Source: Klebsiella pneumoniae (GTDB lineage Bacteria; Pseudomonadota; Gammaproteobacteria; Ga0077536). Taken from it: a DNA stretch of 33,629 nt. The position numbers and the translations under genes are program-made. Below are positions 29,030 through 32,769 of this stretch, in pieces; positions within the stretch are counted from its first letter, which is position 1, and every line of letters starts with the position of its first letter. A model generated the notes under the pieces. The model worked only from the letters and a program-made list of their open reading frames with translations. It was not told the DNA's origin and made no database searches. The stretch lies in the NCBI GenBank assembly GCA_945876945.1, contig CAMCQE010000031.1, positions 1 through 33,629 on the forward strand, written 5' to 3'.

Positions 29030-30895
29030 ATGCTGACTTTTGACATCGCAGGTGGACAGATAGACGGCGCCCGCGACTATCAGGAAGACGCCTACCTGGT
29101 CACGCGACTCGGTGACTCGAACAGCAAGAAAAACGGTTCGCTCATTATCGTGGCCGACGGGATGGGCGGTCATGCGGCCGGTAACGTGGCCAGCAACATG
29201 GCGGTGCAGACGTTCAACAAGCACCTGACCAGCAATTATCCCTCCACCGAGCTCCCCAAAATTCTGCGGCAGGCCGTCCTGCAGGCCAACAACTCCATCG
29301 CCGAGACCGTGCGCGAGACGGCGGCGCTGAAGGGCATGGGCTGCACCTTGGTAGCAGCCGTCATTGATGACAAGTTCTTGCGCTGGGTGAGCGTCGGCGA
29401 TAGTCACCTCTATGTGGCGCGCGGCACCGAACTGCACAAAAAGAATGCCGACCATAGCTATGGCGGTTTTCTCGCCCGAATGGCGGCCCAGGGCAAATCC
29501 ATCGAGCCTGAGCCGGGTTTCTCGCGCAACATGCTGATGAGCGCCCTGACGGGGGATGAAATCGCCGAGATTGATTGCCCCGACACCCCCTTCGAACTGC
29601 AGCCCGGCGACCGCCTGATCATCGCCAGTGACGGTCTGGATACGCTGGGCACCGGCAAATTGCTCGGCTTGCTGGTGAAGGCAAACTCAGCCAAAGACTG
29701 TGCGGATGCCATCCTGAAAGGGGTGCAAGACGCCAGAATGCCCCGACAGGACAACACCACGGTCGTGGTGGTGGTCGTGGGCGAGCAGGCTGAATTCAAG
29801 GCACGCCCTACGCCGCCCCCGATGGCGGTCAACGAATCAGCGCCGAAGTCTGCGTCGATGTCCATGGCTACGCCCAGTCGGCCACTCGGGCGAACGCCCC
29901 CGCCGCAGCGGGTGGTGTTACCGCCGCGCAAGAAGCCTCAAGGCAACCTGGCGATCCTCTTAGTGCCTGCCTTCTTGCTCATCGGCGTGATTACCGCCAT
30001 GTGGTTAACCTTCCAGAAGTCCGAGGTCGAGACGCCGCCGCTGATGGACGACAGCGCGGCAGTCGCCCCGCATCAGGGAAATCCTCCGGTCGTGCCACAG
30101 GATTCGCCAGCGACCCCGCCTGAAACCCCCGCACCGGCCGCCACGACGCCCGCAAACCCTGCGCCCAGCGCAGCGATTACCACAGGCGCTGCGGCAGTTG
30201 CCGGTGCGGGAAAGGTCTTTACCGATGGGCCTGGCCCCGAAATGGTCTTCATACCGGCCGGACGCTTCACGATGGGCGCATCGGATGCAGAAGATGTCTA
30301 CGCCGAGCGGCCCGCGCACGAAGTCGCGATCAAGCGCTTTGCCATCAGCACCCACGAAGTGACCGCCGGCGAATTCGCGCGGTTCGCAGGCCGGCAGGCG
30401 GGTAACGGCCGGCTTCCCGCTGCTTTCGTGTCGTGGAATCAGGCGCTGGCCTATACCCGGTGGCTGTCCGCGCAGACTGGCAAGCGTTACCGACTGCCCT
30501 CTGAGGCGGAATGGGAATACGCCGCACGTGCGGGAACTACCACGCCCTATTGGTGGGGACGCCCGCTTGGCGAAAACAACGCCCACTGCTTTGCTTGTGA
30601 ATCGGGATTAGACCCGCGCAAGACCACACAAGTGGGTCGCTTCAAGCCCAACGCCTACGGCCTATACGACACGGCGGGCAATGTTGAAGAGTGGGTCCAC
30701 GATTGCTTCCACGCCAGCTATCAAGGCGCACCCAACGACGGTAGCGTGTTCGAAGGCGGAGACTGCCCGAATCGGGTTGCCCGGGGTGGCGCATTCTCCA
30801 GCGGCCCGCAGGGCTTGCGGGTCACGGCACGCAACAAGTTTCCCCAGAGCAGCGCCAATGACGGCCTGGGCTTTCGCGTGGTGCGCGAACCTTAG
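29030..30895 (+). CDS. Transmembrane PP2C phosphatase fused to SUMF1/FGE-fold domain
   Basis: A 621-residue fusion. Residues 1-250 are a PP2C Ser/Thr phosphatase: DYQEDAY (D20), VADGMGGHAAGN (D43), SVGDSHLYV, IIASDGLDTLG (D201) and DNTTVVVV (D241), so all metal-binding aspartates are present. A Pro-rich basic stretch ending PPRKKPQGN precedes one transmembrane helix (about 307-327), and the positive-inside rule puts the phosphatase in the cytoplasm. A Pro/Ala-rich linker (332-395) leads to a SUMF1/FGE-sulfatase domain (401-621; MVFIPAGRFTMG, RLPSEAEWEYAARAG, YGLYDTAGNVEEWVHDC, RVARGGAF). The Cys pair used by true formylglycine enzymes after RGGSY is absent (RGGAFSSGPQGLRVTAR), so it is not a formylglycine synthase. 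Cysteines 520, 523, 559 and 579 may pair. The ribosome site is weak. Confidence 0.9.
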   Translation: MLTFDIAGGQIDGARDYQEDAYLVTRLGDSNSKKNGSLIIVADGMGGHAAGNVASNMAVQTFNKHLTSNYPSTELPKILRQAVLQANNSIAETVRETAALKGMGCTLVAAVIDDKFLRWVSVGDSHLYVARGTELHKKNADHSYGGFLARMAAQGKSIEPEPGFSRNMLMSALTGDEIAEIDCPDTPFELQPGDRLIIASDGLDTLGTGKLLGLLVKANSAKDCADAILKGVQDARMPRQDNTTVVVVVVGEQAEFKARPTPPPMAVNESAPKSASMSMATPSRPLGRTPPPQRVVLPPRKKPQGNLAILLVPAFLLIGVITAMWLTFQKSEVETPPLMDDSAAVAPHQGNPPVVPQDSPATPPETPAPAATTPANPAPSAAITTGAAAVAGAGKVFTDGPGPEMVFIPAGRFTMGASDAEDVYAERPAHEVAIKRFAISTHEVTAGEFARFAGRQAGNGRLPAAFVSWNQALAYTRWLSAQTGKRYRLPSEAEWEYAARAGTTTPYWWGRPLGENNAHCFACESGLDPRKTTQVGRFKPNAYGLYDTAGNVEEWVHDCFHASYQGAPNDGSVFEGGDCPNRVARGGAFSSGPQGLRVTARNKFPQSSANDGLGFRVVREP

Positions 30896-32259: not shown

Positions 32260-32769
32260 ATGGGACGCGAAATCGAACGAAAATTCCTGCTGGCCAATGA
32301 CGAATGGCGCGCCGAGGTCACACGCTCGCTGCCGATGCGTCAGGGCTATCTGGCCACCACCGACAAGATCTCGATTCGAATCCGTCAGGAAGGCGAAGAA
32401 GCCTTCCTCAACCTCAAGAGCGCGACGCTAGGCATCAGCCGCGATGAGTTTGAATTTCCCTTACCGGCCACCGGCGCGCTCGAAGCGCTGGCGCGATTTT
32501 GCGGCTCACGTTGCGTGGAGAAAATCCGCCATTTCGTGACCCGCGGCCAACATCTTTGGGAAATCGACGAATTCCTTGGCGAGAATGCCGGCCTTTTCGT
32601 CGCTGAAGTGGAATTGAGCGACGAGCAGGAGGCCTTTGAACGGCCGGTCTGGCTCGGCACCGAGGTGTCGCTGGAACGCCGGTACTACAACGTTTGTCTG
32701 CTTGACCATCCGTATAGGAACTGGTCGACCGCAGAACGCGCGCCGAACGGTGGCCAGCCTCCGGCTTGA
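32260..32769 (+). CDS. CYTH-domain triphosphate-binding protein
   Basis: A 169-residue CYTH (CyaB/thiamine triphosphatase) domain. The signature EIERKFL (ExExK at E4, E6, K8) starts the protein, and alternating basic/acidic strands such as YLATTDKISIRIRQEG and AFLNLKSAT follow, then the closing LWEIDEFLGENAGLFVAEVEL. The tunnel fold binds a triphosphate with metal; bacterial relatives hydrolyse inorganic triphosphate or act on tripolyphosphate. The real substrate is not shown. GAGGA lies about 10 bases before the ATG. It is divergent from ampG and 48 bases before moaA. Confidence 0.88.
   Translation: MGREIERKFLLANDEWRAEVTRSLPMRQGYLATTDKISIRIRQEGEEAFLNLKSATLGISRDEFEFPLPATGALEALARFCGSRCVEKIRHFVTRGQHLWEIDEFLGENAGLFVAEVELSDEQEAFERPVWLGTEVSLERRYYNVCLLDHPYRNWSTAERAPNGGQPPA

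Follow-up and report, generated by a model that had tools for sequence, protein, structure and literature searches.

A putative transmembrane PP2C phosphatase with a SUMF1 domain occurs together with cNMP-domain kinases and a cNMP-cNMP-rhodanese protein in Gammaproteobacteria

In Mycobacterium tuberculosis, the phosphatase PstP consists of a cytoplasmic PP2C domain, one membrane segment and a periplasmic domain that contains two disulfides and to which no function has been assigned (PMC12421883). The formylglycine-generating enzyme (FGE, or SUMF1) has a catalytic Cys pair that follows its RGGSY strand. PvdO of Pseudomonas, a stand-alone pyoverdine maturation protein with no phosphatase attached, has the SUMF1 fold without the FGE cysteines. 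TagR of Pseudomonas aeruginosa also has a SUMF1-type fold. In the H1 type VI secretion system (T6SS) of that organism, TagR acts in the periplasm as an activator, upstream of the Ser/Thr kinase PpkA and the PP2C phosphatase PppA, both inside the cell (PMC6657622, PMC10482370). The gene described here resembles each of these systems in part. It lies in the window, the whole stretch of DNA that was analysed (33,629 nucleotides), as an intact ORF with an ATG start that encodes 621 amino acids. From its N-terminus, the protein has a PP2C domain, a single membrane helix and then a variable linker that leads to an FGE-sulfatase (SUMF1) domain. Its features are as follows.

29030..30895, + strand, complete gene for the PP2C-TM-linker-SUMF1 protein, 621 aa (ORF, Pfam, orthologs)
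29030..29785, + strand, predicted PP2C (PPM) phosphatase domain, aa 1-252 (Pfam; fold match to tPphA 2y09)
29087..29089, + strand, D20 of RDYQED, PP2C metal residue (at least 95% of 44 orthologs)
29156..29161, + strand, D43-G44 of DGMGGH, PP2C metal motif (at least 95% of 44 orthologs)
29630..29635, + strand, D201-G202 of SDGLD, PP2C metal motif (at least 95% of 44 orthologs)
29750..29755, + strand, D241-N242 of QDNTT, PP2C metal motif (at least 95% of 44 orthologs)
29948..30016, + strand, single predicted transmembrane helix, aa 307-329 (hydropathy; AlphaFold2 helix 312-329)
30017..30214, + strand, Pro/Ala-rich linker, aa 330-395, disordered and fast evolving (pLDDT; dN/dS)
30215..30892, + strand, SUMF1/FGE-sulfatase domain, aa 396-621 (Pfam; fold match to PvdO 5hha)
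30587..30598, + strand, C520 and C523 (CxxC), invariant (44/44 orthologs)
30704..30766, + strand, stretch from C559 to C579, both Cys invariant and both present in PvdO (44/44 orthologs; PvdO alignment)
30782..30832, + strand, Cys-free equivalent of the FGE active-site strand, RGGAFSSGPQGLRVTAR (human FGE alignment; ortholog columns)

The PP2C_2 profile of Pfam matches amino acids 31-203 at 5.5e-15, above the curated cut-off. The original prediction had described the PP2C metal motifs as complete, and the ortholog columns bear this out: E19 D20, D43 G44, D201 G202 and D241 N242 are kept in at least 95% of 44 unique orthologs. By fold comparison, residues 1-252 match tPphA (2y09; Z 28.1, rmsd 2.5 over 227 residues) and PstP (1txo; Z 27.1), and PppA is also among the matches. 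The protein scores 138 bits against the Stp1/IreP equivalog NF033484 and does not reach the cut-off of 230. From its sequence, the N-terminal domain is predicted to be a catalytically active PPM/PP2C Ser/Thr phosphatase with an intact metal motif.

FGE-sulfatase (PF03781) matches amino acids 402-619 at 5.5e-52, above the curated cut-off and over positions 2-255 of the 255 in the profile, so the SUMF1/FGE fold that had been read into residues 401-621 is confirmed. PvdO is the nearest solved structure both by sequence and by fold (5hha against residues about 392-621; Z 32.8, rmsd 2.1 over 227 residues, 44% identity). Next is the Treponema variable protein TvpA with Z 30.6, and FGEs match with Z 27-30 (human FGE, Z 28.0, rmsd 2.5 over 213 residues). 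Likeness to FGE is restricted to the fold. In a phmmer alignment S591 lies opposite C336 of human FGE and the loop with C341 is gapped, the second FGE cysteine having been lost within a shorter loop. Column 591 holds Ser, Asn or Thr in the 44 orthologs, and never Cys. The domain is not a functional formylglycine-generating enzyme. The original prediction had noted this absence correctly and had made too much of it: PvdO likewise lacks the FGE cysteines at the same strand, and their loss is ordinary, common to non-FGE SUMF1 proteins. C520, C523, C559 and C579 are invariant in 44/44 orthologs, and PvdO has the equivalents of C559 and C579. Unlike PvdO, which stands alone, this protein carries a phosphatase, and against the PvdO equivalog NF051459 it scores 163 bits, short of the cut-off of 500.

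The single membrane helix that had been placed at about 307-327 is supported by both hydropathy and structure prediction. The only strong hydrophobic segment is 307-326 (KD 2.49), no second segment above KD 1.8 was found in any of the 44 orthologs, and the AlphaFold2 model has a helix at 312-329. The model, built from 31 sequences (mean pLDDT 76.4, pTM 0.47), is confident for the SUMF1 domain, fair for the PP2C domain and disordered in the flanks, with linker pLDDT mostly below 50; it does not predict how the domains are arranged in relation to one another. The four invariant cysteines of the SUMF1 domain form the pattern expected of disulfides outside the cytoplasm. Charges around the helix of the 621-aa protein (+4 before, -3 after) follow a clear charge rule, one that only 27/44 orthologs follow. 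The one membrane helix, these cysteines and the pattern of charges lead us to infer that the PP2C domain lies in the cytoplasm and the SUMF1 domain in the periplasm. With this orientation the layout would be that of PstP, with a SUMF1 domain in the periplasm in place of PstP's.

The combination of a PP2C domain, a membrane helix and a SUMF1 domain had been predicted from this one gene, and it holds across the class. Matches at least as strong as 1e-30 occur in 27/36 genomes of the order. Of 369 genomes drawn from across the class, 38 have the full-length architecture, and these belong to 16 families; this count includes checked split cases, and in genome G389 the two halves are separate matches in one ORF. 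At 1e-80 no further genome was found among 398 of the phylum, a sample with many genomes of the same class that sets no firm limit. The nearest ortholog is 91% identical, and comparison with it gives a dN/dS of about 0.055 for PP2C, 0.057 for SUMF1 and 0.46 for the linker. Both domains are under strong purifying selection, and the orthologs together with dN/dS rule out a chance ORF. Apparent conservation of M1 in the ortholog columns is an artefact of start trimming.

In its own family the gene is flanked by hrpA upstream and an MFS transporter gene downstream, both on the opposite strand. No operon partner was found, and the neighbors differ in other families. A promoter and terminator scan gave no signal above shuffles. 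Much of the order keeps a CYTH-like ORF (by eye; window 32260-32769, + strand) close to the phosphatase gene, and this ORF may have a link to nucleotide signalling. Unlike pstP, the gene has no kinase beside it in its own family.

The original prediction had suggested a counterpart Ser/Thr kinase elsewhere in the genome and a survey for linked kinases. Gene content was compared across the 369 genomes. Ten Ser/Thr kinases are encoded in the source genome, four of them with a C-terminal cNMP-binding domain (Pfam scan for one). These kinase-cNMP proteins include the one on contig C30 (C30:17889-19181) and its paralogs. A separate protein of about 347 amino acids contains two cNMP-binding domains and a rhodanese domain (cNMP-cNMP-rhodanese; C37:4110-5138). 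Presence was scored from search tables at fixed thresholds, with phylogeny handled by counting families only. cNMP-cNMP-rhodanese occurs in 38/38 carriers of the phosphatase versus 127/331 other genomes (Fisher 4e-15), or in 16/16 carrier families versus 67/166 others (1e-6). The kinase-cNMP protein occurs in 34/38 carriers versus 33/331 others (5e-25), or in 15/16 carrier families versus 19/166 others (8e-12); in the remaining four carriers it was not found above threshold. Thus the predicted kinase counterpart is supported, and the kinase-cNMP family is the specific candidate. Unlike the kinase of PstP, these linked kinases have cNMP-binding domains and not PASTA repeats.

A CHASE2-kinase of the source genome served as a control and occurs in 20/38 carriers versus 32/331 others. 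Stratified by the presence or absence of the CHASE2-kinase, the kinase-cNMP link gives odds ratios of 36 and 63; therefore it does not merely reflect kinase-rich genomes. With kinase-cNMP fixed, the CHASE2-kinase link fades to an odds ratio of 2.5 (p 0.09), and the CHASE2-kinase was rejected as the main partner.

In one family, f111, three genomes have the kinase-cNMP and phosphatase genes 2.4-3.4 kb apart on opposite strands, separated by a thioredoxin-like gene (by eye); this proximity represents one lineage. Fusion of the phosphatase to the rhodanese protein was also observed. In one family, a 1736-aa ORF at locus L193 reads cNMP-cNMP-rhodanese-PP2C-coiled coil-TM-SUMF1, with the coiled coil and TM assigned by eye. 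A second PP2C fusion, at L196, reaches the end of its contig before SUMF1 is complete. The PP2C domains of the fused proteins are 48% identical to that of the 621-aa protein and are far closer to it than the source genome's other two PP2Cs.

Several families have giant proteins of 1054-1881 amino acids with the order cNMP-cNMP-rhodanese-coiled coil-TM-SUMF1 (coiled coil and TM again by eye; L191:5302-10569, L192:3929-9571 and L194:5894-9055). The SUMF1 tree is too weak to order the giant proteins and the PP2C-TM-SUMF1 family in origin. Divergent 800-1300 aa proteins that start with cNMP-cNMP-rhodanese were seen in pairs at L216:4793-11664 and L218:3597-9373; in the two proteins of this type that were scanned, the remainder had no Pfam match.

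The source genome also pairs a SUMF1 domain with a kinase. On contig C24 (C24:27018-30685, equivalent to L151:7019-10686), a class III cyclase gene is followed by genes for a Ser/Thr kinase with one TM and a SUMF1 protein. The latter has 256 amino acids and a signal-like N-terminus, and its ORF begins before that of the kinase has ended. Over the SUMF1 domain it shares 48% identity with the PP2C-TM-SUMF1 protein. The row has the look of a kinase whose periplasmic SUMF1 partner is a separate protein. Thus one genome has SUMF1 domains of this kind both fused to a phosphatase and paired with a kinase, which is the strongest argument for a regulatory module over an enzyme fused by accident. Class III cyclases are present in the source genome, and two further loci were recorded. 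At C37:22557-29037 (L150:5558-12038) a CHASE2-cyclase faces a row of CHASE2-kinase, PP2C and FHA genes, just after RsbW-like and STAS-like ORFs (by eye). At C161:3785-5500 (L153:3785-5500) a class III cyclase gene has a small PP2C gene directly after it.

We lean towards a reading in which the protein is a transmembrane phosphatase that opposes the cNMP-kinases, works with the cNMP-cNMP-rhodanese protein and uses its periplasmic SUMF1 domain for sensing or docking. The protein would be a bitopic inner-membrane Ser/Thr phosphatase with its N-terminal PP2C domain working in the cytoplasm. Outside, the SUMF1 domain, without formylglycine-generating chemistry, would most likely bind either a ligand that it senses or an envelope partner to which it docks, and this binding would set where or when the phosphatase acts. 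The phosphatase would most likely reverse phosphorylation by the cNMP-domain kinases and may work with the rhodanese protein, so that an inner cyclic nucleotide signal and an outer envelope signal could meet on the same targets. Ligand binding, the direction of control, the kinase as opponent and the identity of the nucleotide are parts of this scheme that we infer.

Because a long, fast-evolving linker fits tethering or clustering as much as a conformational switch, passive docking is the main rival. SUMF1 would then be an anchor that holds the phosphatase at an envelope component, without ligand-dependent switching. A long, disordered and fast-evolving linker is a poor transmitter of a conformational signal, and in PstP the periplasmic domain is not essential (PMC12421883). 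Retention of SUMF1 in 38 genomes with dN/dS near 0.05 fits binding but cannot tell anchoring and sensing apart. We regard a purely passive anchor as rather unlikely.

It is considerably less probable that SUMF1 is a separate enzyme, performing a PvdO- or EgtB-like oxidation in place of formylglycine formation and tethered to the membrane via the phosphatase. PvdO is its closest solved structure and shares the missing cysteines. However, the score against the PvdO equivalog is far from the cut-off, and related SUMF1 domains end many membrane proteins that have cNMP-rhodanese modules, which a binding module fits better than one enzyme. A role as the phosphatase arm of the T6SS phosphorylation pathway, with SUMF1 as TagR and PP2C as PppA, recalls the general outline of TagR/PpkA/PppA and the PppA fold match but is very improbable and was rejected: here SUMF1 is fused to the phosphatase, and the sheath marker VipB (PF05943; E. 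coli control positive) is in 2/38 carriers and therefore missing from 36/38, as it is from the source genome.

The literature search, which left most subscription papers outside its reach, found no description of a PP2C-TM-SUMF1 protein or of the set of cNMP-kinase and cNMP-rhodanese proteins. The sole paper in it that names both PP2C and SUMF1 domains gives them separately. The suggestion that this is an undescribed system therefore holds for the literature searched and needs narrowing, as transmembrane PP2Cs with a periplasmic domain are known from PstP (PMC12421883). What is new is the company that the protein keeps: cNMP-cNMP-rhodanese, kinase-cNMP, and the fusion in one family. Tentatively, and with some doubt, these may form an undescribed gammaproteobacterial set of cNMP kinases, a cNMP-cNMP-rhodanese adaptor and a SUMF1-receptor phosphatase, in which cyclic nucleotide and envelope signals would converge on shared phosphoproteins.

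Even for PstP, the periplasmic domain that transmembrane bacterial PP2Cs carry lacks an explanation. With a well-folded and conserved SUMF1 domain in that position, this family offers a tractable case for asking whether phosphatases, besides kinases, are controlled from outside the cell, and the gene sets name a kinase and an adaptor as candidate partners. They also suggest that some proteins annotated as nonheme iron enzymes of the SUMF1/EgtB/PvdO type may be receptors or docking modules of phosphorylation networks.
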